NCBI RefSeq assembly: GCF_001746415.1
Contig: NZ_MEHJ01000001.1
Location: 1,365,001-1,429,000 of the forward strand
Direction: 5' to 3'
DNA from: Streptomyces agglomeratus
GTDB lineage: Bacteria; Actinomycetota; Actinomycetes; Streptomycetales; Streptomycetaceae
Length of the DNA: 64,000 bases
Position 1 is the stretch's first letter. Every line of letters begins with the position of its first letter. This document shows positions 1 to 32,768 of the stretch, in pieces. A model generated the notes under the pieces. That model was not told the origin of the DNA and ran no database searches. It saw only the letters and a program-made list of their open reading frames with translations. The translations under genes and the position numbers were made by a program.

Positions 1-241
1 AGCTGATAGGCCGCGGGCTCATCCTTCACCGCCGGAGCTTTTAACCTCTTCAGATGCCTGAAGAAGTGTTATCCGGTATTAGACCCCGTTTCCAGGGCTT
101 GTCCCAGAGTGAAGGGCAGATTGCCCACGTGTTACTCACCCGTTCGCCACTAATCCACCCCGAAGGGCTTCATCGTTCGACTTGCATGTGTTAAGCACGC
201 CGCCAGCGTTCGTCCTGAGCCAGGATCAAACTCTCCATGAA
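1..241 (-). rRNA. 16S ribosomal RNA, 5' part (partial)
   Basis: The reverse complement begins with the universal 16S start (AGAGTTTGATCCTGGCTCAG, at 234 down to 215) and continues with conserved helices, including the GGCGGCGTGCTTAACACATG and GTGAGTAACACGTGGG segments. Counting back from AGAG at E. coli position 8 places the mature 5' end near 241. Only about the first 240 nt are present; the rest of the rrn operon runs off the left edge. Confidence 0.98.
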
Positions 242-20573: not shown

Positions 20574-21338
20574 TCAGGACAGCTCGTAGACCGCGGTGAC
20601 AGCGACCTCGTTCCGGATCTCGCCGGGCGCCACCGGCATCTTCCCCTCCTGGAACGCGGCGCCGGGTACGTCCACCGGGCGGTGCGTACCGCCGCCCGTC
20701 TCGGTGATCGACACGAGCCGCCCCAGCCGACGGCCGCTGAGTTGCGCGTACTGCACTGCCTTGGCCCGTGCGTCGGCGTGAGCGGCCTCGCGGGCCATGG
20801 CGCGCAGGGCGGAAGGGTCGGCGACGTCGAAGGTGACGCCGTTGATCCGGACCGCGTCGCCCGCCGCCCCGGTCACGGCCTCGACGACCGCGCCGGTCCT
20901 GGCGAGGTCGCGAATCCTGATGGAGAAGGACTGGCCCGCCTGATATCCGGTCAGCTTGGAGCCCGCGCGGTCGCTGTGCTGGTAGACCGCGTTCAAGGAG
21001 AGACTCTCGGTCTGTACGTCGCGGTCGGCGACGCCCTGCTTCCGTACGGCGCCCAGCACCGCTTCAGCGGCTGCGGACTGCGCGGCCAGCGCCCGCTTCG
21101 CGGTGGGCTGCGTGGACTCGACGGCGACGGCGAGGGTCGCCATGTCGGGGGCGGCGGAGGCACTGCCTTCGCCGCCGACGGAGACGGTGGCGGCGTCGCG
21201 GTCGGCGTCGGCCGGAGCGAAGGCCGCGACCGAGGTGGGAGCGGCTGTCGCGGCGGATGCCCCGAAAGCGGGTGCGGCGCCGCCGGCGAGCAGTCCACCG
21301 GTGAGCGCGGCGGCGGTCAGGGCCGTACGTACGGACAT
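20574..21338 (-). CDS. Secreted SIMPL-domain protein
   Basis: A 254-residue exported protein. The first about 30 residues form a signal peptide (RTALTAAALTGGLLAGGAAP, with an Ala-rich cleavage region). The mature part is a SIMPL (DUF541) domain: VSVGGEGSASAAPDMATL, then VADRDVQTESLSLNAVY and TGYQAG.SFSIRIRDL. Family members are periplasmic or surface proteins of uncertain role. ATG 21338 is preceded by GGAAGGA and by the real signal sequence; the frame upstream of it is spurious. Confidence 0.88.
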   Translation of the reverse strand: MSVRTALTAAALTGGLLAGGAAPAFGASAATAAPTSVAAFAPADADRDAATVSVGGEGSASAAPDMATLAVAVESTQPTAKRALAAQSAAAEAVLGAVRKQGVADRDVQTESLSLNAVYQHSDRAGSKLTGYQAGQSFSIRIRDLARTGAVVEAVTGAAGDAVRINGVTFDVADPSALRAMAREAAHADARAKAVQYAQLSGRRLGRLVSITETGGGTHRPVDVPGAAFQEGKMPVAPGEIRNEVAVTAVYELS

Positions 21339-21468
21339 GGCATTGGTCCTTCCAAGGGAGGGGAGCCCATCCCAGCACCGGCGACCGTGGGGCCGGTCGC
21401 GCCACTCCCGCCCTGTCACCTCTCCGTACCAGCCATACTGTGCCCAGCGGAGCCGGAAGGGGCTTGCG

Positions 21469-22455
21469 GTGTCTGAACAGCAGTCTGAACAGCAGTCCGA
21501 GCAGCAATCCGAGCAGCAATCCGGGCAGCGGTGTGAACAGGGCGCTGAACAGCGGTCCGCGCACACGGCGTACGACGTACTGGTGGTCGGCGGCAGCGGG
21601 GTGGACACGGTCGTCCGCGTCGACTCGCTGCCCGTGCCGGTCGCCGACTCGTTCGGCGTGCCGCCCATCCGCGAATGGCCGGGGCACACCGGAGGCAATG
21701 TGGCGCTGGGCTGCCGGGCCCTGGGACTCGAGGTGAAGTTCCTCGACTTCATCGGTGACGACTGGATCGGCGGGCAGGTCAGAGAGCGTCTCGCCAAGGG
21801 CGGCGTCGACTTCGAGCCGCTGATCTCGCCCGCGGGCACCCGCCGCGCGGTGAATCTCGTCGACAGCGCCACGGGCCGCCGGATGTCCTTCTACGACGGC
21901 CGCGACCCCGGTGATCTGCGGATGCCCCGCGACTTCTACCTGCCCCACCTGCGGCGGGCGGGGCATGTCCATCTGTCCATCATGGACTTCGCCCGGCACC
22001 TGCTCGACGACATCGAGGAACTGGGGGTGCCGGTCTCCACCGATCTGCACGACTGGGACGGACTCGCCGATCACCAACGGGAGTTCGCGCTCCGCGCCGA
22101 CCTCGTGTTCCTCAGTGCGGCCGGCGCCGGGGAGCGTATCTCCGCCGTGATGCGCGACATCCTGCGCGAGGGCCGCGCCGAGGCCGTGGTGGCCACGGCC
22201 GGGGCGGGCGGCTCGTACCTCCTGACGCGCGACGGCAGCCGCACCCCGCGCCCCGTACCGGCGACCGTGCCGCCCGGCCCGGTGGTGGACTCCAACGGCG
22301 CCGGGGACGCGTACGTCAGCGGATTCCTGTACGGGCGTCTCACCGGCCGGGGCCTGGAGGAGTGTGCCCGCCTCGGGGCGCGGGCTGGAGCCCACGCCTG
22401 TACGACGGAGGGCAACACGGACCTGATCGGACCGGGCAGCCTCCTCTCCACCTAG
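21469..22455 (+). CDS. PfkB-family carbohydrate kinase with SEQQ-repeat N-terminus
   Basis: A 328-residue sugar or nucleoside kinase. Residues about 29-320 are the ribokinase fold: VVGGSGVDTVVRVD entry, GHTGGNVALGCRALG (about 74) and the ATP/anion-hole motif DSNGAGDAYVSGFLYG (about 272) with the catalytic Asp. The substrate is unknown. Residues 2-29 are a low-complexity (SEQQ)n tail encoded by 12-bp repeats and are unusual for the family. The GTG at 21469 has GGAAGGGG about 6 nt upstream. Confidence 0.88.
   Translation: MSEQQSEQQSEQQSEQQSGQRCEQGAEQRSAHTAYDVLVVGGSGVDTVVRVDSLPVPVADSFGVPPIREWPGHTGGNVALGCRALGLEVKFLDFIGDDWIGGQVRERLAKGGVDFEPLISPAGTRRAVNLVDSATGRRMSFYDGRDPGDLRMPRDFYLPHLRRAGHVHLSIMDFARHLLDDIEELGVPVSTDLHDWDGLADHQREFALRADLVFLSAAGAGERISAVMRDILREGRAEAVVATAGAGGSYLLTRDGSRTPRPVPATVPPGPVVDSNGAGDAYVSGFLYGRLTGRGLEECARLGARAGAHACTTEGNTDLIGPGSLLST
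21472..21555 (+). repeat. 12-bp tandem repeats encoding SEQQ units
   Basis: Seven consecutive 12-bp units immediately after the start codon: four encode SEQQ, then SGQR, CEQG and AEQR as they degenerate. The first copies are nearly identical at the DNA level (TCTGAACAGCAG / TCCGAGCAGCAA), indicating slippage-type expansion. Confidence 0.9.
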
Positions 22456-22477
22456 CGACCCCCCGGGCGGTCGCGGG

Positions 22478-23479
22478 TCAGGTCTGGCGCACCGGTTCGT
22501 ACGCCTCCTGCCCGAGGCCGAACGTCCAGGCCACGCCTTCCTTCGCGGTCCTCGTGGCCGGCGGCACGCGCAGCCAGTACGTCCGGTACGTGCCGTCCGG
22601 CTCGGGGGTGGAGTTGACCACCTCGACCATCACCACGTCCTCGTCTCCCTCCAGGGCTATGCGCCACAGGACGCCGGTCTCGTCGCGGTGCACGGGCTGC
22701 GCCCCGGACTCGGCGAGATAGCGGTCGTAGCCGTAGTACTCCAGCATCACGCGGCGCAGCTCCGCGTTCTCCTCGACCCGGATGCGCTCGGGCGTCAGCG
22801 AGGTCAGTTCGTCGAGGAACTCGGCCGGTACGGGCATACCGCGCCAGGCGTAGAGCGCGAAGCCGTCGGAGAAGGCCAGCGCGGGGCCGTCGCCGCGGTC
22901 GAGCCGCCCCGCCTCGTCGCGGTGGAGCTCCACCGGCCGTTCGCTGATCACCACGGCGTGCTCGTAGGGCCACCACCAGCCGGCGTTCCGGGCCACCCGC
23001 GCCAGCCCCGTGAGCCGCTCGCCCCGGCCGTCGAACGCCGAGAGCCAGGCGGCGTCGTGCTGGCCGAGGACCGCGTCCAGCAGGACGAGCCGCACGTCCG
23101 ACTCGTCCTCCGGCCGCTCCACGAGCTCGGAGACGACTCCCGCCCGTATCCGCTCGGCCAGTTCCCTGGTGGTGTCCCACAGCTGGGCTCCGGTGGCGGA
23201 CCACAGCTCCGCCCAGCCCGCGGGGCCCAACTCGTCGTGCAGCCGACGTCGTTCTTCGGCCCACGGTCCGGTGCGCACCTCTTCCCGCACCGACTTCCCC
23301 GCGCCGGAGAGCAGCTCCACGGCCTTGACCGCCTCCTTGGGCGAGGCGGCCCAGACGATCCGTTCCGGCTCCGGTAGCCCTGCGCTGCGGTAGGCGAGCC
23401 GCACGCCCTCCTCAGCGGCCGCACGGTCCGCCGCACCGGTCGCCGCCGCGACGGCCCGCCAAGTGTTCACCTGCTGCAT
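22478..23479 (-). CDS. DUF6745-like hypothetical protein
   Basis: A 333-residue soluble protein with no signal peptide. The C-terminal half resembles the DUF6745 family: WWWPYEHAVVISERPVELHR then GPALAFSDGFALYAWRGMPV and YGYDRYL..AQPVHRDETGVLW. Function unknown. The small gene at 23614 lies upstream on the same strand, and both point away from the STM4015-STM4011 operon, sharing its control region. I place it tentatively in the same system. The DUF name is from memory of the pattern. Confidence 0.75.
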   Translation of the reverse strand: MQQVNTWRAVAAATGAADRAAAEEGVRLAYRSAGLPEPERIVWAASPKEAVKAVELLSGAGKSVREEVRTGPWAEERRRLHDELGPAGWAELWSATGAQLWDTTRELAERIRAGVVSELVERPEDESDVRLVLLDAVLGQHDAAWLSAFDGRGERLTGLARVARNAGWWWPYEHAVVISERPVELHRDEAGRLDRGDGPALAFSDGFALYAWRGMPVPAEFLDELTSLTPERIRVEENAELRRVMLEYYGYDRYLAESGAQPVHRDETGVLWRIALEGDEDVVMVEVVNSTPEPDGTYRTYWLRVPPATRTAKEGVAWTFGLGQEAYEPVRQT

Positions 23480-23613
23480 CGAATTCCCTGTCCCCTGGTG
23501 TCTGGTTCCTGGCCGCGTTGTCGCGCCGGCCCTTGCTGCCCGCGCCGTCGAGCACCTTCAGCCCGTTGGCTCCGTCGGCCCCTCTGCTCCGTCAGCCGGG
23601 CCGGGCCGGGTCG

Positions 23614-23940
23614 TCAGTCCGCGACGATACGGACCGAGCCCGGTACGTACTCGCGCTGGCGCACCACCCGGTACCAGCCCTTGGGCAGCGGTATCGCCGC
23701 GTGCTCCTCGTGCACCACCCGTCCGCCTTCGGGCAGATGGAGCAGCATCGGGTCGAGCGGTCCCGCCTCCCGCAGCAGCCTGCCCGGCCCCTGCACTGCG
23801 TGCGCGTGCCCCGTGACCTCGCCCAGCGCCAGCACCAACCGGCCCCTGGCGTCGCGCCGTTCACCAGGGGCGTCCGCCAGATGGGCCGGTACGGCCGACT
23901 CGTCCAGCGACACGATCAGTACGTCCCCTTGCCGGTACAT
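23614..23940 (-). CDS. Small hypothetical protein, start of the operon divergent from STM4015
   Basis: A 108-residue soluble protein of unknown function. It begins MYRQGDVLIV, has a conserved-looking GEVTGHAHAVQGPGRLL stretch (about 47-63) and ends with WYRVVRQREYVPGSVRIVAD, looking like a compact beta-rich fold. Histidines in GHAH and a downstream HEEH could bind metal, but this is speculative. ATG 23940 has GGGAGGGGAGA upstream. It is read from the promoter at 23989-24011 and followed by the DUF6745-like gene. Confidence 0.7.
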   Translation of the reverse strand: MYRQGDVLIVSLDESAVPAHLADAPGERRDARGRLVLALGEVTGHAHAVQGPGRLLREAGPLDPMLLHLPEGGRVVHEEHAAIPLPKGWYRVVRQREYVPGSVRIVAD

Positions 23941-23988
23941 GGCTGTCTCCCCTCCCGGACCGCACACTCTGTGCCGGCCACGGGGAAA

Positions 23989-24071
23989 ACGCTACGACCC
24001 GGGTCTGACAATCACCCCTGACCTGCGGTGACCCACCCGCTCGCGGGATTGTCAGTCCCGCTTGATAAACC
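23989..24071. promoter_or_regulatory. Mirrored divergent promoters resembling PafBC (RecA-NDp) elements
   Basis: On the minus strand TTGTCAGA (24011-24004) is followed after 9 nt by TAGCGT (23994-23989), in front of the gene at 23940. On the plus strand TTGTCAGT (24049-24056) is followed after 9 nt by TAAACC (24066-24071), in front of the gene at 24115. The known mycobacterial RecA-NDp promoter, bound by PafBC, is TTGTCAGTG-N8-TAnnnT with the same spacing. The minus copy meets the -10 consensus; the plus copy misses its last base. Confidence 0.6.
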
Positions 24072-24114
24072 TTTCGCACGTCAGTCGCTCGCACAGTGTC
24101 AGGAGACCAGGGCC

Positions 24115-25065
24115 ATGTCCGGTGTGGACCATTTGCAGGAATTGCTCGGCCTCCCGGCCGTCGACTTCCGTCCCGACTCCCCTTCGCCGTTGCCGGCCGC
24201 GGACACCGTGGCGTGGCGCATCTCCGTGGACCCGTACGAGGACGAGGACGGGACGTGGGACGAGAGCTTCGACGCGTTCCTGAAGGCCGTTGATCCCGCC
24301 CGGGTACGTGCGCTGATCATCGGCCAGTGGGGCGAGTCGTACGAGGCGGACTCCAGCTACCCCGTCAACCTGGTCATCGCGGCGGCCGACCGGCTCACCT
24401 CCCTGGAGGCAGTCTTCGTCGGCGACCTGACCCAGGAGCAGGCCGAGATCTCCTGGATCGAACAGTCCAACGTCACAGGTCTGCTCAGCACCTTCCCGCG
24501 CCTGCTGGAACTCGGCGTACGCGGCGGTACGGGGCTCCGTTTCCCGCCCGTGCGGCACGAGCGGCTGCGCTCGCTCGTCTTCGAGTCCGGCGGCCTACCG
24601 GCCTCGGTCGTGCGGGGCATCACCGAGAGCGAGCTGCCCTCCCTGGACCACCTGGACCTGTGGCTCGGCGTGTCCGAGTACGGCGGCGACACGGAGATCG
24701 CCGACCTCGCGCCGCTGCTCTCCGGCACCCTCTTCCCCGGACTGCGCCACCTCGGCCTGCGCAACAGCGAGATCGAGAACGAGATCTCCGCGGCCGTCGC
24801 GTCGGCCCCGGTGGTCGCCCGGCTGGACACGCTGGACCTGTCGAACGGCACCCTCGGTGACGAGGGCGCTGCCGCGCTGCTCGAAGGGCAGCCGCTCACC
24901 CACCTGGAAACCCTCGACCTGCACCACCACTTCCTCTCGCAGGAGATGGAGGAGCGGGTGGCCGGGGCCCTGGAGCCCCATGGTGTGGACGTCGACCTGT
25001 CGGACCGTCTGGAACCCTGGGACAACCTCGGGGCCGAGGGCCGCTACACCGCCGTGGCGGAGTGA
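24115..25065 (+). CDS. STM4015 family protein (leucine-rich-repeat-like), first copy
   Basis: A 316-residue protein. The second half shows ribonuclease-inhibitor-like leucine-rich repeats: LRHLGLRNSEIENEI, LDTLDLSNGTLGDEGAAALL and LETLDLHHHFLSQE. The first half has the family pattern VAWRISVDPYEDEDG and VRALIIGQWGESY. It is probably a protein-protein interaction scaffold of the STM4011-4015 set; its partner is unknown. ATG 24115 has AGGAG 9 nt upstream; the frame upstream is spurious. First gene of a six-gene rightward operon. Confidence 0.85.
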   Translation: MSGVDHLQELLGLPAVDFRPDSPSPLPAADTVAWRISVDPYEDEDGTWDESFDAFLKAVDPARVRALIIGQWGESYEADSSYPVNLVIAAADRLTSLEAVFVGDLTQEQAEISWIEQSNVTGLLSTFPRLLELGVRGGTGLRFPPVRHERLRSLVFESGGLPASVVRGITESELPSLDHLDLWLGVSEYGGDTEIADLAPLLSGTLFPGLRHLGLRNSEIENEISAAVASAPVVARLDTLDLSNGTLGDEGAAALLEGQPLTHLETLDLHHHFLSQEMEERVAGALEPHGVDVDLSDRLEPWDNLGAEGRYTAVAE

Positions 25066-25071
25066 CCGGCC

Positions 25072-26043
25072 ATGACCGACATCGAGCACCCCGAGACCTT
25101 CCACGGCCTTCCCGTTCTCACCCTGCCCGAGCCCGGCGAGCAGCACGCCCCGCCGCTGCCGCCCGCGGACTCCGTCGCCTGGCGTCTGGACTGTCTGTGG
25201 AACGAGGACAATCCGTTCGCCGAACTGTGGCCGCGCTTCCTCGACTCCGTCGACTCCTCGCGGGTGCGCGCCCTGCTGATCGGCCCGTGGTGGCACGGTG
25301 AGTACGAGCATCTGGGGCCCGTCCTGGACCGGATCCTCGCGGACGCGGACCGCTTCCCCGCGCTGCGCGGCCTCTTCCTCGCCGACGTCATCAGCGAGGA
25401 GTGCGAGCTGTCCTGGCTGGAGATGACGGACGTGACACCGTGTCTGGAGGCTTTCCCCAGGCTGGAGGAGCTGGTCGTGCGCGGTTGCGGCGAGTCGCTC
25501 TCCGACACGGACACACTCTCCCTGCGGCCGGTTGCCCACGACGCGCTGAAGGTACTGCGCTTCGAATCGGGCGGCCTGCCCGGCTCCGTCGTCCGCGCCG
25601 TCGGCGCGTCCCGGCTGCCCGCCCTGGAACGCCTGGAGCTGTGGCTCGGTGTCACGCATTACGGCGGGGACGCGACGGTTGCCGACCTCGCGCCCCTGCT
25701 GTCCGGCGGCGCCCTGCCGCGCCTGCGTCAGCTGGGCGTGCAGAACAGTGAGATCCAGGACGAGATCGCGACAGCCGTCGCCGCGGCGCCGGTCGTGGCC
25801 CGGTTGGACACGCTGGCGCTGTCGATGGGCACGCTCACCGACGCCGGTGCCCACGCTCTGCTCGAAGGGCAGCCACTCACCCACCTCGGCGAACTGGACC
25901 TGCACCACCACTACATCACCGAACCGGTCCAGCAGCGCCTGCGCACGACACTCGAACCGCACGGCGTGCGCCTGCATCTCGACGAGCCCGACCACTGGGA
26001 CCCCGAGTACGACGAAACCCGCTATGTCGCCGTCGACGAGTAG
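25072..26043 (+). CDS. STM4015 family protein, second copy
   Basis: A 323-residue paralogue of the preceding gene, starting 6 bp after it. It keeps the same layout: VAWRLDCLWNEDNPF, VRALLIGPWWHGEY, SWLEMTDVTPCLEAFPRLEE, then the leucine-rich repeats ending DLHHHYITEPVQQ. About half of the residues look identical, so this is a tandem duplication that has diverged. Its 3' end overlaps the STM4014 gene by 20 bp. Role as for its neighbour, presumably an interaction scaffold; unknown in detail. Confidence 0.85.
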   Translation: MTDIEHPETFHGLPVLTLPEPGEQHAPPLPPADSVAWRLDCLWNEDNPFAELWPRFLDSVDSSRVRALLIGPWWHGEYEHLGPVLDRILADADRFPALRGLFLADVISEECELSWLEMTDVTPCLEAFPRLEELVVRGCGESLSDTDTLSLRPVAHDALKVLRFESGGLPGSVVRAVGASRLPALERLELWLGVTHYGGDATVADLAPLLSGGALPRLRQLGVQNSEIQDEIATAVAAAPVVARLDTLALSMGTLTDAGAHALLEGQPLTHLGELDLHHHYITEPVQQRLRTTLEPHGVRLHLDEPDHWDPEYDETRYVAVDE

Positions 26044-27226
26044 GCCGGGCAGCGCGGACGGCCCGGCTCCGCGCTTCGCGGTCGTCGGCAACCCGGCCAA
26101 CCGCCGTGTCGCGCTGTTCCAGGACGCGGTGGCCGCCGCCGGGCTTCCCGCCGCGCGGGTCGTCCCCTGGCTCGACGTGCTCGGGGGCCGGGCCCCCGCG
26201 TTCCGGCCCGGAGAGACCGTACGGATCGACTCGCCCGGCGAGGACCCCGCGGTGGAGCGGCTCCTGCGGGGCGCCGGCGACGCCACCCGTGTGGAGGGCT
26301 CGGCGCTCTGGTACGAACGGTTCACCGCGGCCGTACGGGAAGTGGGCCGGGCGGCCGCCGACTGCGTCCTGCTCGACGACCCCGACGAGCTGGCGGTGCT
26401 GTTCGACAAGCGGCTGTGTCACGCCGTCCTGAACGGCGCGGGCGTTCCCGTGCCCGCTTCTCCCACCTCCGGACCGACGGCACCGGCCGTGCGCGGCTGG
26501 GCGGACGTACGGGAACTGCTGCGGGCGCACCGCATGCCGCGCGCCTTCGTCAAGCTCGCCCACGGCTCGTCGGCCTCCGGTGTACTGGCCGTCGAAACGG
26601 CGGGGCCCGGCCGCGTACGGGCCACCACGTCCGTGGAGCGCGACGCGCGGGGGCGGCTATACAACTCCTTGCGGGTGCGCAGCTGTACGACCGAGACCGA
26701 GGTCGCGTCGATCGTGGACGCGCTCGCACCGGACGGACTCCACGTCGAGCGCTGGCTGCCCAAGGCCGCACAGCGTGGCCGGGCCGCCGACCTCCGGGTG
26801 ATCGTGGTCGGCGGCAGGGTGACGCACGCCGTCGTACGCACGAGCCGCTCCCCCATGACCAACCTCCATCTCGGCGGCACGCGCGGCGACCTCGACGAGG
26901 CCCGCGCCGCCATGGCAGCGGCGGGGGCCGGCTGGGCGGAGGCCGTGGACGTGTGCGAGCGGGCCGCCGCGTGCTTCCCCCGCACGCTCTGCGTGGGTGT
27001 CGATCTGCTGCCCGCCGTCGGCTGGCGCCGCTTCGCCGTCTGCGAGGTCAACGCCTTCGGCGATCTGCTGCCGCGTCTCACCGGTCTGCCGGGCAGCGGC
27101 GCCGAGGGCCTGGACACCTACGCGGCGCAGGTCGCCGCCGTACAGCGGTCGGTACAGCACCCGGTGCGGCAGCCCGTACGTCCCGCCGTACAGCGCACGA
27201 CAAGGAACCACCATGCGATCACCTGA
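26024..27226 (+). CDS. STM4014 family protein (ATP-grasp-like)
   Basis: A 400-residue protein. After an N-terminal Rossmann-like part (FAVVGNPANRRVALFQDAV) comes an ATP-grasp-like core: FVKLAHGSSASGVLAVE (about 173-189), VERWLPKA and ADLRVIVVGGRVTHAVVR, ending with CVGVDLLP and CEVNAFGDLLP (the metal-binding N of the family). ATP-grasp enzymes ligate a carboxylate to an amine or thiol. Target unknown. The ATG at 26024 overlaps the previous gene by 20 bp; the frame opens further upstream but without homology. Confidence 0.82.
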   Translation: MSPSTSRPGSADGPAPRFAVVGNPANRRVALFQDAVAAAGLPAARVVPWLDVLGGRAPAFRPGETVRIDSPGEDPAVERLLRGAGDATRVEGSALWYERFTAAVREVGRAAADCVLLDDPDELAVLFDKRLCHAVLNGAGVPVPASPTSGPTAPAVRGWADVRELLRAHRMPRAFVKLAHGSSASGVLAVETAGPGRVRATTSVERDARGRLYNSLRVRSCTTETEVASIVDALAPDGLHVERWLPKAAQRGRAADLRVIVVGGRVTHAVVRTSRSPMTNLHLGGTRGDLDEARAAMAAAGAGWAEAVDVCERAAACFPRTLCVGVDLLPAVGWRRFAVCEVNAFGDLLPRLTGLPGSGAEGLDTYAAQVAAVQRSVQHPVRQPVRPAVQRTTRNHHAIT

Positions 27227-28040
27227 CATGAACGAGATCGTCGGCAGCCACGATCTGCTGCTCGTCACCCTGGACACCCTGCGCCACGACGTAGCCGCCG
27301 AACTCGCCGCCGCGGGCCGGATTCCGAACCTGGTCCGGCATCTGCCCGGCGGCACATGGGAGAAGCGGCACGCGCCCGGCAGCTTCACCTATGCCTCGCA
27401 CCAGGCGATCTTCGCGGGCTTCCTGCCCACGCCGGCCTCCCCCGGCCCGCACCCCCGGCTCTTCGCCGCGCGCTTCGCGGGCAGCGAGACCACCGCCGGG
27501 CACACGTACGTCTTCGACGCGCCCGACCTCGTCTCCGGCCTCGCGGACGCCGGTTACCGCACGGTGTGCGTCGGCGGCGTCGGCTTCTTCAACCGGCAGG
27601 GCCCACTCGGCTCGGTGCTGCCGGGGATGTTCCAGGAGAGCCACTGGGAGCCGCGGTTCGGCGTGGCCTCGCCCACGTCCTTCGAGGAGCAGGTCGCCCG
27701 GGCCGAGCAGGTCGTCGCCGGGCTCCCCGACGAGCAGCGGCTGTTCCTGTTCGTCAACGTCTCCGCCCTGCACCAGCCGAACTGGTTCCATCTGCCCGGC
27801 GCCACCCGCGAGGCCGGTGACTCCCGCGCCACCCACGCGGCCGCCCTGGAGTACGTCGACCGGCACATCGGCAGGCTGTTCGCCGCCGCGAGCAGCCGCC
27901 GTCCCTGTTTCGCCATCGTCTGCTCCGACCACGGAACGGCGTACGGCGACGACGGCTACACCGGCCACCGCCTCGGCCACAAGGCCGTCTGGACCGTGCC
28001 CTACGCCCATTTCACTCTCGACCGAGGGGCCACCCCATGA
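27213..28040 (+). CDS. STM4013/SEN3800 family hydrolase (alkaline-phosphatase/sulfatase fold)
   Basis: A 275-residue enzyme of the alkaline-phosphatase superfamily. The entry LLLVTLDTLRHDV (about 14-26) supplies the first metal Asp and the nucleophile Thr position, and SDHGTAYGDDGYTGHRLGH (about 239-257) supplies the second metal site. Such enzymes hydrolyse or transfer phosphate or sulphate groups. There is no signal peptide, so it works in the cytoplasm. ATG 27213 has AAGGAA 5 nt upstream; it overlaps both neighbours, so expression is coupled. Confidence 0.85.
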   Translation: MRSPDMNEIVGSHDLLLVTLDTLRHDVAAELAAAGRIPNLVRHLPGGTWEKRHAPGSFTYASHQAIFAGFLPTPASPGPHPRLFAARFAGSETTAGHTYVFDAPDLVSGLADAGYRTVCVGGVGFFNRQGPLGSVLPGMFQESHWEPRFGVASPTSFEEQVARAEQVVAGLPDEQRLFLFVNVSALHQPNWFHLPGATREAGDSRATHAAALEYVDRHIGRLFAAASSRRPCFAIVCSDHGTAYGDDGYTGHRLGHKAVWTVPYAHFTLDRGATP

Positions 28041-29401
28041 GCACCGCACCGCCCCGCCCCTACGGCAGTTACGTCTACGCCTACCCGCACAAGACGGCGT
28101 ACCGCGAGCTGGAGGACCGGCCCGCCCTCCGCGAACTGTGGGCGGACGAGCCCAAGAACGCCCTGTCCCTCTACCTCCACATACCGTTCTGCGAGGTCCG
28201 CTGCGGCTTCTGCAACCTCTTCACCCGGATCGGCGCCCCGGACGAACTGACCGGCCGCTACCTCGACGCGCTCGACCGCCAGGCGACCGCCGTCCGCGAC
28301 GCCCTCGACGCCGGACCCGCCGGAGCCGACGACGGCGGCAACGGCGACAGCGCGGTGCGCTTCTCCGCCGCGGCCTTCGGCGGCGGCACCCCCACCTTCC
28401 TCGACCCCGGCGAGCTGGAACGGCTCTGCGACATCGCGGAGAAGCGGATGGGCGCCGACCTCGGCGCGGTTCCCCTGTCCGTCGAGGCGTCCCCCGCCAC
28501 GGCGACCAGCGACCGCCTCGCAGTCCTCGCCGGCCGCGGCACGACCCGCCTGAGCCTCGGTGTCCAGAGTTTCGTCGCCTCCGAGGCCCGCGCGGCCGTG
28601 CGCCCCCAGCGGCGCGCCGACGTCGAGGCGGCCCTGGCCGCCGTCCGCGAGGCCGGCATCCCCGTCCTCAACATCGACCTGATCTACGGCATCGAGGGCC
28701 AGAGCGCCCGCACCTGGCGTGCCTCGCTCGACGCGGCGCTCGCCTGGCGGCCCGAGGAGCTCTACCTCTATCCCCTGTACGTACGCCCCCTCACCGGCCT
28801 CGGCCGGCTCGGTACCGACGCCGACGTCGCCTGGGACACCCAGCGCCTGCGGCTGTACCGCCAGGGCCGTGACCACCTGCTCGCCCACGGCTACGAGCAG
28901 GTCTCGATGCGCATGTTCCGCCGCGCGGACGCGCCGAAACAGGCGGCCGACGACTACGCCTGCCAGACCGACGGCATGATCGGCCTGGGCTGCGGAGCCC
29001 GTTCGTACACCTCCTCGCTCCACTACTCCTTCGACTACGCCGTCGACATGCGCGAGGTACGCAAGATCATCGACGACTACACCGCGACGGAGGACTTCTC
29101 CCGTGCCGAGGTCGGCCGGTACGTCGACGCCGGTGAGGCCCGCCGCCGGCATCTGCTGCAGTCGCTCCTTCAGGCCGAAGGCATGCCCCTGGCCGGTTAC
29201 GCCGACCGGTTCGGCACGGCGCCCACCGACGACTTCCCCGCCGAACTCGACCGCTTCGCCGCCCTCGGCTGGCTCGACGAGAGCGCACCCGAGGGCCTGC
29301 TGCGCCTGTCCCCGGAAGGACTCGCGCACTCCGACGCGCTGGGCCCCGAGCTGTTCTCCCCCGCCGTACGGGCCGCCATGGCCGCGTACGACCTGAAGTG
29401 A
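28037..29401 (+). CDS. STM4012 family radical SAM protein (HemN-like)
   Basis: A 454-residue radical S-adenosylmethionine enzyme. The 4Fe-4S site is HIPFCEVRCGFCNLFT (CxxxCxxC, about 50-65), followed by AFGGGTPTFL, VEASPAT and LSLGVQSFV, as in the coproporphyrinogen oxidase HemN and its relatives. A C-terminal winged-helix-like part follows (MIGLGCGARSYTS then YLDAGEARRRHLLQS-like). It lacks nothing obvious for SAM cleavage; substrate unknown. It overlaps the hydrolase gene by 4 bp. Confidence 0.88.
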   Translation: MSTAPPRPYGSYVYAYPHKTAYRELEDRPALRELWADEPKNALSLYLHIPFCEVRCGFCNLFTRIGAPDELTGRYLDALDRQATAVRDALDAGPAGADDGGNGDSAVRFSAAAFGGGTPTFLDPGELERLCDIAEKRMGADLGAVPLSVEASPATATSDRLAVLAGRGTTRLSLGVQSFVASEARAAVRPQRRADVEAALAAVREAGIPVLNIDLIYGIEGQSARTWRASLDAALAWRPEELYLYPLYVRPLTGLGRLGTDADVAWDTQRLRLYRQGRDHLLAHGYEQVSMRMFRRADAPKQAADDYACQTDGMIGLGCGARSYTSSLHYSFDYAVDMREVRKIIDDYTATEDFSRAEVGRYVDAGEARRRHLLQSLLQAEGMPLAGYADRFGTAPTDDFPAELDRFAALGWLDESAPEGLLRLSPEGLAHSDALGPELFSPAVRAAMAAYDLK

Positions 29402-30318
29402 GCGCGGCCATGGACCCGGCACACCTGACGATCCTCTACCGCGGCCCGCTCGCCTCCTGCGATTACGACTGTCCGTACTGCCCGTTCGCCAAGCGGCGTG
29501 ACAGCTCCGAGCAGTTGCGGGCCGACCGCGCCGCGCTGGAGCGCTTCACCGCGTGGGCCGCCGCGCAGACCGACGACCGGCTCTCGGTCCTCTTCACGCC
29601 GTGGGGCGAGGGCCTGGTCCGCTCCTGGTACCGCCGCGCCCTGACCGAGCTGTCCCGGCTGCCGCACATCCGGCGCGTCGCCATCCAGACGAACCTGAGC
29701 TGCCGCACCGACTGGCTCACCGAAGGCGGCCCGGACCTCGGCACGCTCGCGCTGTGGTGCACGTACCACCCGGGTCAGACGCCGTACGACCGCTTCCTCG
29801 CCAAGTGCCGCGAACTGACCGCCGGCGGCGTGCGTTTCAGCGTCGGTGTGGTCGGCTTCCCCGAGCACCTGGCCGAGGCGCGCAGACTGCGCGCGGCGCT
29901 CCCGGCCGAGGTCTACCTGTGGGCCAACGCGGCGGAGGGCCGCACTTACACGGACGAGGAAGCCGCCCACTGGACGGCCCTGGACCCCCTCTTCCCGTAC
30001 AGCCGCCACCCGCACCGCTCCGCCGGTCTCCCCTGCCGGACCGGCGAGTCGGTGATCTCGGTGGACGGCGACGGCACGGTGCGCCGCTGCCACTTCGTCC
30101 GTGCCGAGCTCGGCAACCTCTACGACGGCTCGTACCGCCGGGCACTGCGCCCCCGCGCCTGCCCGCTCGCCGTCTGCGACTGCCACATCGGCTACGTCCA
30201 CCTGGAGACGCTGCCGCTGTACGACGTGTTCGCGGGCGGCGTCCTGGAGCGCGTACCGGCCGCCGTCTCACAAGGGCAGCAGATCGGGCCGCTTCGCCTC
30301 GACGTGGTCACCCGATGA
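29398..30318 (+). CDS. STM4011 family radical SAM protein
   Basis: A 306-residue radical SAM enzyme. The cluster site is CDYDCPYCPFAK (CxxxCxxC, about 20-31). The C-terminal part has a Cys-rich segment (LPCRTGESVISVDGDGTVRRC, with further CPLAVCDC about 256-263) reminiscent of SPASM/twitch auxiliary clusters of peptide-modifying enzymes. Substrate unknown. GTG 29398 overlaps the STM4012 stop; an ATG at 29410 is an alternative. Its 3' end overlaps the convergent SGNH gene by 51 bp. Last gene of the operon. Confidence 0.85.
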   Translation: MSAAMDPAHLTILYRGPLASCDYDCPYCPFAKRRDSSEQLRADRAALERFTAWAAAQTDDRLSVLFTPWGEGLVRSWYRRALTELSRLPHIRRVAIQTNLSCRTDWLTEGGPDLGTLALWCTYHPGQTPYDRFLAKCRELTAGGVRFSVGVVGFPEHLAEARRLRAALPAEVYLWANAAEGRTYTDEEAAHWTALDPLFPYSRHPHRSAGLPCRTGESVISVDGDGTVRRCHFVRAELGNLYDGSYRRALRPRACPLAVCDCHIGYVHLETLPLYDVFAGGVLERVPAAVSQGQQIGPLRLDVVTR

Positions 30319-31059
30319 CTCGCCGCGCAGTCGCCGCCCGATCCAGGGCACCAGGTGCTCCCGCGCCCACTGGATGTTGTCGCGGCGCGCCTCCAGTGAG
30401 TTGCGCGGGGCCATGGGCGGCCACGCCTGGTCCGGGTCGGCCGGTACGTCGAGGCCGAGCACCTGGGCGGCGCGCAGCGCGACGCGGGTGTGGCCCTCGG
30501 GCGAGAGGTGGAGCCGGTCGCCGTCCCACGCGCGCCTGTCCTGGACGGACTTGAGCGACCACAGGTCGAGCACCGGGCAGTCGTAGCGGTCGGCGACCGC
30601 CCGCACGTGCGCCGTGTACGTCGCGATCTTGCCGCGCAGATGACGCAGCACGGGAATGCCACGCGTGTCGAAGCCGGTGGTCACCATGACGGTGCCCACA
30701 GCGTCGGTGAGCTCCGCGACGGCCCGTTCGAAGCGCTCGGCGACGTCGTCGGGGTCGCTGCCCGGCCGGAGGATGTCGTTGCCTCCCGCGCAGAAGCTCA
30801 CCAGGTCGGGAGCCAGTTCCTTCGCGCGCGGGACCTGCTCGGCCACGATCTGGTCGAGGAGCCGGCCGCGTACGGCGAGGTTGGCGTAGCGGAACGTGTG
30901 CTCGGGGACGCGGTCGTCGAGGAGTACGGCGAGCCGGTCGGCCCAGCCGATGAACGCACCGTCGGGTCCGGGGTCTCCGACGCCCTCGGTGAAGCTGTCG
31001 CCGATCGCCGCGTACGACCCGATGGTGCCCGCACTGAATGTTCTCGAATCGTCTGCCAC
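30268..31059 (-). CDS. SGNH/GDSL-type hydrolase
   Basis: A 263-residue esterase-fold protein. Block I is AAIGDSFTEGVGD (catalytic Ser about 22), block III CAGGNDI and block V DRLHLSPEGH with the Asp-His pair (about 184-193). There is no signal peptide, so it probably acts in the cytoplasm on an acyl or acetyl ester. GTG at 31059 with AAGGA upstream. It converges with STM4011 and overlaps it by 51 bp. Confidence 0.9.
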   Translation of the reverse strand: MADDSRTFSAGTIGSYAAIGDSFTEGVGDPGPDGAFIGWADRLAVLLDDRVPEHTFRYANLAVRGRLLDQIVAEQVPRAKELAPDLVSFCAGGNDILRPGSDPDDVAERFERAVAELTDAVGTVMVTTGFDTRGIPVLRHLRGKIATYTAHVRAVADRYDCPVLDLWSLKSVQDRRAWDGDRLHLSPEGHTRVALRAAQVLGLDVPADPDQAWPPMAPRNSLEARRDNIQWAREHLVPWIGRRLRGESSGDHVEAKRPDLLPL

Positions 31060-31259: not shown

Positions 31260-31331
31260 GATCAGACAGTGACGATCGACAGTGACTGATCGGACGGCGA
31301 CTGGTCAGACAGTGGCTGATCAGATGGTGAC
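31260..31331. repeat. Five 14-15-bp degenerate tandem repeats covering a stop codon
   Basis: Units start at 31260, 31274, 31288, 31303 and 31318, each of the form GATCAGACAGTGACT with a few changes. The last unit contains the stop codon and last residues of the LysM/M23 gene, so the array looks like an expansion from the gene end into the flank. Confidence 0.75.
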
Positions 31332-32267
31332 GCCGTGGCCGCGGAGGTAGGCCAGCGGGTCGACGTCCGAGCCGTAGCCCGGGCCGGTGCGGATCTCGAA
31401 GTGCAGGTGCGGGCCGGTGGAGTTGCCCGTGCTGCCGGAGAGACCGATCTGCGTGCCGCCACCGACGCTCTGGCCGGCGGAGACGGCCAGCGAGGAGAGG
31501 TGGGCGTACTGCGAGTACCGGCCGTCGTTGTGCCTGATGACGACCTCGTTGCCGTACGAGCCGCCCCAGCCCGCGGAGACGACGGTGCCGGGGGCGACAG
31601 CCTTGACCGGGGTGCCGCTGGAAGCGGAGAAGTCGACGCCCGTGTGGTAACCGCTGGACCAGCTGCCGCCGGCGGCGCGGTACGGGGTGGTGACGCCCGC
31701 TGCGACCGGGGCGGTGAAGCCGGACCCGTTGCTCTGCGCGGCAGCGGCGGGAGCGGGGGCGGAGACCTGCTTCTCGACCTTCGGAGCGGCCTTCGGAGCA
31801 GCCTTGGGCGCGGCCTTCGCCGGGGCGGGCTTCGCGGGAGCCGCCTTGGCGGGGGCGGGCCTAGAAGGCGCCGCGGCCTCGCCGCCGATGGTCAGCTTCA
31901 TGCCGGGCAGGATCAGCGAGGGGTTGCCGCCGACGACCTGACGGTTGTCCTCGTACAGCTCCTGCCAGCCGCCGCGCACGTCCTGCTCGTCGGCGATCTT
32001 CGACAGGTAGTCGCCGGAGACCACGGAGTACGTCCTGGTGGCGGTCTTCTTCTGCGGCGCCTTCTTCTGCGGAGCCGCCTTCTCGGCGACGTCGGAGGCG
32101 GCGCTCTTGCCGGCGGCGGCGGGAGCCGGGGCGGCCTTCTCCGCGGCGTTCGCGCCGGTGGCGGCGATGAGGGGAAGTGCGAGTACGGCTCCGCCCGTTC
32201 CGGCGGCGACGAAACCGCGCGTCAGCGGGTTGGACCTCGGGCGGCGGTGCTTACCCTTTGCGGGCAT
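31320..32267 (-). CDS. Secreted LysM and M23 peptidase, peptidoglycan hydrolase
   Basis: A 315-residue exported cell-wall hydrolase. A basic N-terminus and hydrophobic segment (GFVAAGTGGAVLALPLIAAT, about 18-37) form the signal peptide. LysM (about 78-125; YSVVSGDYLSKIADEQDV) binds peptidoglycan. An Ala/Pro/Lys linker follows, then the M23 zinc peptidase with HTGVDF (about 228) and HLHFEIRTG (about 289). It cuts cross-bridges of the wall. ATG 32267 has GAGAGGAA 6 nt upstream. A c-di-AMP riboswitch sits directly before it and probably turns it off at high c-di-AMP. Confidence 0.93.
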   Translation of the reverse strand: MPAKGKHRRPRSNPLTRGFVAAGTGGAVLALPLIAATGANAAEKAAPAPAAAGKSAASDVAEKAAPQKKAPQKKTATRTYSVVSGDYLSKIADEQDVRGGWQELYEDNRQVVGGNPSLILPGMKLTIGGEAAAPSRPAPAKAAPAKPAPAKAAPKAAPKAAPKVEKQVSAPAPAAAAQSNGSGFTAPVAAGVTTPYRAAGGSWSSGYHTGVDFSASSGTPVKAVAPGTVVSAGWGGSYGNEVVIRHNDGRYSQYAHLSSLAVSAGQSVGGGTQIGLSGSTGNSTGPHLHFEIRTGPGYGSDVDPLAYLRGHGVTI

Positions 32268-32282
32268 GGAACATTCCTCTCC

Positions 32283-32470
32283 GGCGCCTACGAGGTGAGC
32301 TGTCGGGTTCGGGCTGGAGATGCCCGGCCGCGCCGGTGCGCGACTTAACCCCAAGCCGGTCCGGACAATGGGACATCCGGAGACCGGCGTACTTACCTGG
32401 TTCCCCCGCTCCTGCCACGCGTGAGTGAGTGTGAGTGCGGATTCCGGGAGGTGGCAGGATTCGGCGGTCC
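32283..32470 (-). promoter_or_regulatory. ydaO-type c-di-AMP riboswitch
   Basis: The minus strand just before the LysM/M23 start carries the conserved ydaO-yuaA blocks in order: GCCGAATCCTGCC, later GGCAGGAGCGGGGGAACC, then GGGGTTAAGTC, then GGGCATCTCCAGCCCGAACC and ACAGCTCACCTCGTAGGCG. The two outer stems and both ligand-contact loops are present. In actinobacteria this riboswitch controls resuscitation factors and other cell-wall hydrolases, and binding normally lowers expression. Confidence 0.92.
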
Positions 32471-32768
32471 ACCCGGATTGACGGTGACCGTAAGCCGACG
32501 GGGCTGCCCCGTACAAGCCAGTCCATTCATTCCGCCATGGACCGGTGCGAATTCCTGAGGCAATTCCCGTCACCCTCCGTGGATTACGGATCTTTACGCC
32601 CCGGCCGTGAGCTGGCATTCGCACACGGCGCTTCACCACGCACTGTCACGAATATGATCCTGCTCACCCGCCTTCGGGCCATTTCCCTTGCACACAAGGG
32701 CAGTTAACGTGATATCGCCCGTTTCGCACCAACTGCCGCATACCTACCATCTTGCTGCCGTAAGGGGG
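32471..32768. other. Intergenic region, promoter of the riboswitch transcript
   Basis: About 300 bp with no gene. It lies downstream of the leftward alpha-galactosidase and upstream of the leftward riboswitch, so it should hold the riboswitch promoter. A short palindrome ACGGGGC-TGCCCCGT lies at about 32498-32512. Base composition drops near 32540-32760. I could not settle a promoter pair. Confidence 0.5.

Follow-up and report, generated by a model that had tools for sequence, protein, structure and literature searches.

What do the proteins of the STM4011-STM4015 families do for the bacteria that keep their genes together? The question is raised by a 64,000-nucleotide stretch of the Streptomyces agglomeratus genome (the window, i.e., the whole stretch analysed), in which six plus-strand genes (24115-30318) follow each other in the order STM4015-STM4015-STM4014-STM4013-STM4012-STM4011. 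A small gene and a DUF6745 gene lie next to them on the minus strand. In an NCBIfam profile scan of the window proteins, all six core proteins exceed by far the curated cut-offs of the five families. The NCBIfam entries are labels without described function, and in the open-access literature no paper was found for the STM4011-STM4015 family names or for DUF6745, whereas one of the gene names occurs in two listed papers.

A previous reading of the letters alone (the sequence-only reading) had placed these eight genes at 22478-30318 and had proposed a multi-step modification pathway. The eight genes are indeed there, and both the gene roles and the pathway idea are supported. The leucine-rich repeat (LRR) proteins, i.e., STM4015, had been taken for scaffolds; they look more like substrates or carriers. 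Two elements go beyond that reading: a conserved C-terminal Glu in STM4015 and promoters of the DNA-damage type. Taken together, these results lead to a proposal that is plausible and still tentative: STM4011-4015 would be a carrier-protein pathway in which STM4014 loads the last Glu of STM4015 and a pair of radical S-adenosylmethionine (SAM) enzymes plus a hydrolase rework what is loaded, often under DNA-damage control.

The C-terminal Glu of STM4015 and the core enzymes

The alignment of 12 STM4015 proteins across phyla contains 29 invariant columns, the last residue (Glu) being one of them. A variable acidic linker precedes this invariant Glu, and the tail consensus is the acidic linker followed by R[YF]-x-[AST]-[VLI]-x-E. 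Glu is C-terminal in 117 of 120 STM4015 open reading frames (ORFs) from many phyla; the three others are found one each in loci L073, L081 and L097. The last residue of STM4011, STM4013 and STM4014 is not fixed, and that of STM4012 is mostly Arg or Lys. The N-terminal part of STM4015 varies (WGR in Bacteroides; HEAT-like in cyanobacteria, below the Pfam cut-off), and the body matches the LRR protein 2ra8 and ribonuclease-inhibitor LRRs. Cyanobacterial loci have up to four diverged STM4015 paralogues, with Glu kept in 15/17.

In Streptomyces, the tails were counted on the copies in the best-scoring loci, not on all copies. STM4015 ends in Glu in 67/67 copies located beside STM4014 and in 22/33 copies located away from the operon, three of these 22 lying within ~10 kb of it. 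The tree of Streptomyces STM4015 has three tail changes, all among non-operon copies. Five genomes (G385, G320, G361, G589 and G644) have STM4015 without STM4014 (E 1e-20), and the Glu end is found in 0/5 of them. In this survey, no more than five candidates were scored in each genome, which may have missed some copies, and the STM4014 check covered all but 18 of the 194 STM4015-bearing genomes. It is safe to state that Glu is retained wherever STM4015 sits in the operon; outside the operon, it is dispensable for the persistence of the gene. As a separate observation, one clade of non-operon Streptomyces copies (L215, L216, L218, L219, L246, L248, L250 and L253) ends mostly with SVGPL[TS]Y or CVGPVSY.

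The comparison of STM4014 with ATP-grasp folds, proposed together with the sequence-only reading, agrees with its assignment: the best structural matches of the model (predicted local distance difference test, pLDDT, 91) are ArgX-LysW, LysX and RimK, the latter tied with ArgX/LysX. RimK entries lead the profile search, and the Pfam RimK score is 20.4 bits, just below the cut-off of 21. ArgX, LysX and RimK join amino acids to the C-terminal Glu of a protein; RimK does so in the glutamylation of ribosomal protein S6. The tie in structure and the lead in the profile search would also suit a regulatory modification of the RimK type, in which the addition of Glu or another residue by STM4014 to the end of STM4015 would switch an LRR adaptor; nothing would be built up there, and the radical SAM pair would use another substrate. 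Several adaptors served by one ligase would be expected to give the 22/33 tails kept outside the operon. Nevertheless, STM4014 is accompanied in most uncut loci by the hydrolase and both radical SAM enzymes, which would be superfluous for a simple switch; such a switch is regarded as unlikely.

STM4013 had been described as sulfatase- or phosphatase-like. The alkaline-phosphatase superfamily stands; the sulfatase-type nucleophile does not, since an invariant Thr (T52, motif FTxxxHxAxxxGF) occupies the nucleophile position in 12 aligned sequences. The nucleophile motif of formylglycine (FGly) sulfatases is Cys/Ser-x-Pro-x-Arg, from which the invariant Thr in these 12 sequences departs. The best PDB sequence matches are NPP phosphodiesterases, then choline sulfatases. 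HAD phosphatases recur around the core, i.e., fused to STM4011 in Bacteroides (L019, 6328-7890), overlapping downstream in Salmonella (L016, 10910-11644) and near STM4013 in Myxococcus (L098, 8207-9004), and probably represent an extra pathway step. STM4013-like hydrolases were also met without the rest of the system in the stretches examined of two further loci, L015 (7738-9901; NUDIX and lasso B2 genes annotated) and L017 (7974-9247; NUDIX-, radical-SAM- and kinase-like ORFs, judged by eye).

STM4012 is nearest to HemN (1olt) and to the radical SAM methyltransferase NocN (9p2u). The Cys residues of STM4011 are invariant in nine aligned sequences, and its C-terminal part matches SkfB (6efn, E 1.7e-4). 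This last match is what would be expected if the tail were the core peptide of a system resembling those for ribosomally synthesised and post-translationally modified peptides (RiPPs), cross-linked by STM4011 (SPASM-type) and closed by STM4014 through a bond of the graspetide type (ester or amide) that ties the acidic linker to Ser/Thr/Lys. The acidic linker itself, the several STM4015 paralogues at some loci and the STM4013-like gene that two plasmids carry next to a NUDIX gene (annotated in one, judged by eye in the other; lasso B2 in one) point the same way. The graspetide ligase PsnB is found at rank 7 for STM4014 in Foldseek, i.e., within the top ten, but it is absent from the 50 entries of a second structural comparison. 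Moreover, the LRR body is conserved over its full length across phyla, which is unexpected for a RiPP leader, the linker varies in length and composition, and the recurrent neighbours include no dedicated exporter or protease, though ABC-type ORFs occur in 8 and MFS-type ORFs in 4 of the compared loci (by eye). A RiPP-like system is held to be improbable. Equally improbable is a docking tag, i.e., an unmodified C-terminal Glu motif that only binds the core enzymes while STM4015 delivers a damage-related target: it predicts the same retention and loss of the tail and agrees with the WGR N-terminus in Bacteroides, which suggests target binding, but it leaves unexplained why the ligase resembles precisely the enzymes that act on a protein C-terminal Glu.

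Eight proteins were also scanned with PADLOC (2023 library), giving only a weak partial model match, to STM4012 (2.6e-5); absence from that library proves little.

The divergent arm and the layout of the locus

The small gene and the DUF6745 gene (hereafter the arm) are separated from the operon by the gap 23941-24114, which is exactly 174 bp as had been read from the sequence. The operon had also been called overlapping. This is right for most junctions: STM4013/STM4012 and STM4012/STM4011 overlap by 4 nt, and STM4015/STM4014 and STM4014/STM4013 overlap when translation begins at the candidate start codons 26024 and 27213 (both ATG), the frame from 26024 being present. It is not right for the two STM4015 genes, which are 6 nt apart.

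Table 1. Features of the STM4011-4015 locus (window positions).
Feature	Position	Strand	Evidence or remark
DUF6745 protein (333 aa), with the domain spanning residues 129-333	22478..23479	-	PF20530, 395 bits (gathering cut-off 27)
Small gene, 108 aa, ATG at 23940	23614..23940	-	Conserved motif, C-terminal Asp; paired with DUF6745
PafBC/RecA-independent-type promoter motif toward small gene and DUF6745	23989..24011	-	TTGTCAGAC-N8-TAGCGT
PafBC/RecA-independent-type promoter motif toward STM4015	24049..24071	+	TTGTCAGTC-N8-TAAACC
STM4015, first copy (candidate LRR carrier), C-terminus ...GRYTAVAE	24115..25065	+	NF038076, 390 bits (cut-off 275)
STM4015, second copy (candidate LRR carrier), C-terminus ...TRYVAVDE	25072..26043	+	NF038076, 369 bits (cut-off 275)
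STM4014, ATP-grasp ligase resembling RimK/LysX/ArgX, probable start at 26024	26024..27226	+	NF038074, 456 bits (cut-off 175)
STM4013, alkaline-phosphatase-superfamily hydrolase, start 27213 or 27228	27213..28040	+	NF038075, 428 bits (cut-off 250)
STM4012, HemN/HemW-like radical SAM enzyme, CxxxCxxC motif	28037..29401	+	NF006067/PRK08208, 630 bits (cut-off 380)
STM4011, radical SAM enzyme, SPASM-like C-terminal Cys cluster	29398..30318	+	NF038073, 413 bits (cut-off 200)

Among 121 Streptomyces genomes, the small gene (>150 bits) and DUF6745 (>350 bits) are found in the identical 44 genomes, all 44 with STM4014 (Fisher p 1.1e-23; kinship is ignored here, as in all shares from genus samples). STM4014 is present in 54/121 (53 over the cut-off and one partial match at a contig end), so that the arm is missing from 10/54 core-bearing genomes. 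DUF6745 and STM4014 lie on one contig in 43/44, their matches being 2.5-4.8 kb apart, and are split over contigs in the remaining genome. Weaker DUF6745 matches (~90-107 bits) occur away from the system in six of the 121 genomes.

Beyond Streptomyces, genome relatives were restricted to 80 of 557, with 49 Paenibacillaceae among the 80, over-represented because a Paenibacillus sequence led the query; protein listings comprise the best 120 entries. In the loci kept, the arm is present at 6/12 plasmid loci, 5/31 non-Paenibacillaceae genome loci and 0/49 Paenibacillaceae loci; it was not seen at the Salmonella, Paenibacillus and Bacteroides plasmid loci. Its position relative to the core changes: (i) upstream on the same strand in Methylobacterium; (ii) downstream on the opposite strand in three Deinococcus plasmids, two Chloroflexi contigs, Nonomuraea and Hamadaea; (iii) divergent in Streptacidiphilus. 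Since the pair adjoins the core in several arrangements, a functional tie between them is likely. The previous suggestion that the arm belongs to the STM4011-4015 system, to be checked by co-occurrence, is thus supported.

The arm is nevertheless optional for the system, and it is also an independent two-gene module. The small protein is encoded by 364 viral-contig stretches; at the 80 viral loci kept, a DUF6745 frame is in reach at 52 and an STM gene at none. Named phages with the small protein amount to 9 records only, i.e., eight Microcystis phages and one cyanophage; in Microcystis phage LMM01 it is found at 155190-155525 of NC_008562.1. Alignments of the small protein conserve GExTGHxH...HxEH...QREY plus a C-terminal Asp, which is the last residue in 15/15 ORFs near the core and 80/80 viral copies. 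At the limits used, it has no NCBIfam or Pfam match and only PHROG 27831 was obtained; its AlphaFold2 model (pLDDT 86) has no convincing PDB fold match. The N-termini of DUF6745 proteins vary, that of Deinococcus being LRR-like by alignment and by a weak LRR match.

Elsewhere in the window, a cyclic di-AMP (ydaO/yuaA) riboswitch (65.5 bits) is found at 32270-32441 (-), where a LysM/peptidase-like ORF begins (31320-32639; function judged by eye). One end of a 16S rRNA gene is located at 1-241 (-), model positions 1-246, cut by the window edge.

Promoter motifs of the DNA-damage type

A shared control region had been postulated for the two arms of the locus, and promoter elements of the same type are found in both directions of the 174-bp gap. 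The loose PafBC-type pattern TTGTC[AG]G[TA][GC]-N8-TA-N3-[TC] has two matches in the 64-kb window, one per direction, both inside the gap, when 0.025 are expected from shuffles. PMC5656591 gives tTGTCRgtg-8 nt-TannnT as the consensus of RecA-independent DNA-damage promoters (mycobacterial PafBC). The minus-strand site satisfies the capital positions of this consensus; the plus-strand site ends in C, not T.

The strict motif has 18 matches near the operon starts of 49 Streptomyces core loci (one locus per genome). Of the 40 arm-bearing loci, 38 have the loose pattern within 450 bases of the operon start, directed toward the core in 28, toward the arm in 34 and both ways in 24. Over both kinds of loci, its matches number 63 in 44 kb near the starts vs. 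0 in 239 kb elsewhere. The contrast between 38/40 arm-bearing loci and 1/9 core-only loci implies that motif and arm are associated in Streptomyces. In two Nonomuraea loci, a looser pattern is found upstream of the small gene although the arm is not divergent. In the best reading, the small-gene/DUF6745 pair would be a co-regulated partner of the core; DUF6745 and its small partner gain a first function-linked context.

A search of the whole S. agglomeratus genome for the strict motif, made as a positive control, gave 27 matches (loci L280-L306) vs. 0 for the reversed pattern. A script picked the 27 downstream ORFs, 20 of which were scanned for families. They include RecA, DnaX, PolA, uracil-DNA glycosylase, MgsA/RarA, a UvrD-type helicase and an AlkZ-like glycosylase, as well as RecD2-like and DEAD helicases, ribosomal protein S6 and a WGR protein; the remaining ones are sigma factors, a transporter, a PhoH protein, a transposase or have no known family. 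Motifs placed before repair genes suggest a RecA-independent damage regulon in Streptomyces and provide sequence evidence for PafBC-type promoters in this genus. This motif set contrasts with PMC9380542, where an initial search suggested a lack of conservation in S. venezuelae. The WGR-domain protein with a damage-type motif upstream is located at L297:2-1450 (-); WGR also occurs in the Bacteroides STM4015.

The LexA site of Bacillus subtilis is given as CGAACN4GTTCG in PMC3091678. Its core, exact GAAC-N4-GTTC, is found near the operon start in 23/50 Paenibacillaceae loci, i.e., 23 matches in 14 kb near the starts vs. 16 in 892 kb elsewhere. The patterns used have no match at the Salmonella, Deinococcus, Methylobacterium and cyanobacterial loci, nor at two further Bacillota. 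With matches in Streptomyces and Paenibacillaceae and none at these other loci, a putative DNA-damage control in parts of two lineages is well supported at the sequence level, and a general one is not. Two unrelated types of damage-control site, in two phyla, before the same operon would point to a common need.

The proposed pathway and known systems

The carrier-protein pathway may be described as follows: (i) STM4015, with its LRR body, variable acidic linker and RY-x-[AST]-[VLI]-x-Glu end, would be the carrier or substrate; (ii) STM4014, as judged from its fold and from the tail, would activate the C-terminal Glu and attach an amino-acid-like group; (iii) STM4011 (SPASM-type) and STM4012 (HemN-type) would next modify the loaded tail by radical chemistry, this order of steps being presumed; (iv) STM4013, of the Thr-nucleophile phosphoesterase type, possibly with an HAD phosphatase in some lineages, would finish or release the product. 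In arm-bearing Streptomyces, the core and the arm would be induced through the divergent PafBC-type motifs; in about half of the Paenibacillaceae loci, a LexA-type box ahead of the operon may play this role.

Two observations weigh against a simple reading of the Glu losses in Streptomyces: (i) eight Glu-less STM4015 copies form one clade, in which three come from core-less and five from core-bearing genomes; (ii) in genome G602, STM4014 is broken and the Glu of STM4015 is still present. The scarcity of the motif at Streptomyces core loci without the arm slightly lowers the confidence in the proposal.

A wider reading is possible and rather doubtful: a new class of damage-induced biosynthesis, with a radical-SAM product built on the C-terminal Glu of LRR carriers whose sensor-like bodies are exchangeable (LRR, WGR-LRR, HEAT-like-LRR), and a mobile partner module, the small-gene/DUF6745 pair, that some loci have and others lack. 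If true, carrier-protein pathways would extend beyond lysine/arginine and pearlin metabolism and would serve genome protection, signalling or killing after damage. In any case, five widespread bacterial families known by serial-number names only gain a testable mechanism, with a substrate (STM4015), a residue (the last Glu) and a first enzyme (STM4014). The proposed timing, after DNA damage, applies at least to arm-bearing Streptomyces and many Paenibacillaceae.

Compared with the mycobacterial PafBC/RecA-independent promoters, similar elements lie ahead of both arms; the window sites are near, not exact, and PafBC would be the putative regulator in Streptomyces. Compared with RimK and the glutamylation of ribosomal protein S6, STM4014 has the ATP-grasp fold and the first profile matches in common, but the STM system would differ by its LRR substrate, its radical SAM partners and its sub-cut-off Pfam RimK score.

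Pearlins, as presented in PMC9303977, resemble the proposed pathway in that a genetically encoded carrier is worked on at its C-terminus, release coming afterwards. Their ligase is LanB-like and tRNA-dependent, and it acts on a small peptide (same source). The ten proteins scanned at 21319-31059, which include radical SAM proteins, an alkaline-phosphatase-superfamily hydrolase, DUF6745, a PfkB kinase and a GDSL lipase, contain neither a LanB-like peptide aminoacyl-tRNA ligase nor enzymes of the LysZ, LysY, LysJ or LysK type.

The proposed pathway would work like that of amino-group carrier proteins (LysW with LysX/ArgX for lysine/arginine; Vzb22 for vazabitide), the logic of which is described in PMC9303977: as in the STM system, a protein ending in Glu is associated with an ATP-grasp ligase from the RimK superfamily. 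The fold of the ligase is shared, ArgX-LysW being the best structural match of STM4014. The body of STM4015 is an LRR one and not of the LysW type, and the neighbours differ too, since the STM cluster has two radical SAM proteins, an alkaline-phosphatase-superfamily hydrolase and promoter motifs of the DNA-damage type. Because the carrier body and the neighbouring enzymes differ, the STM system is not classed as an amino-group-carrier system.

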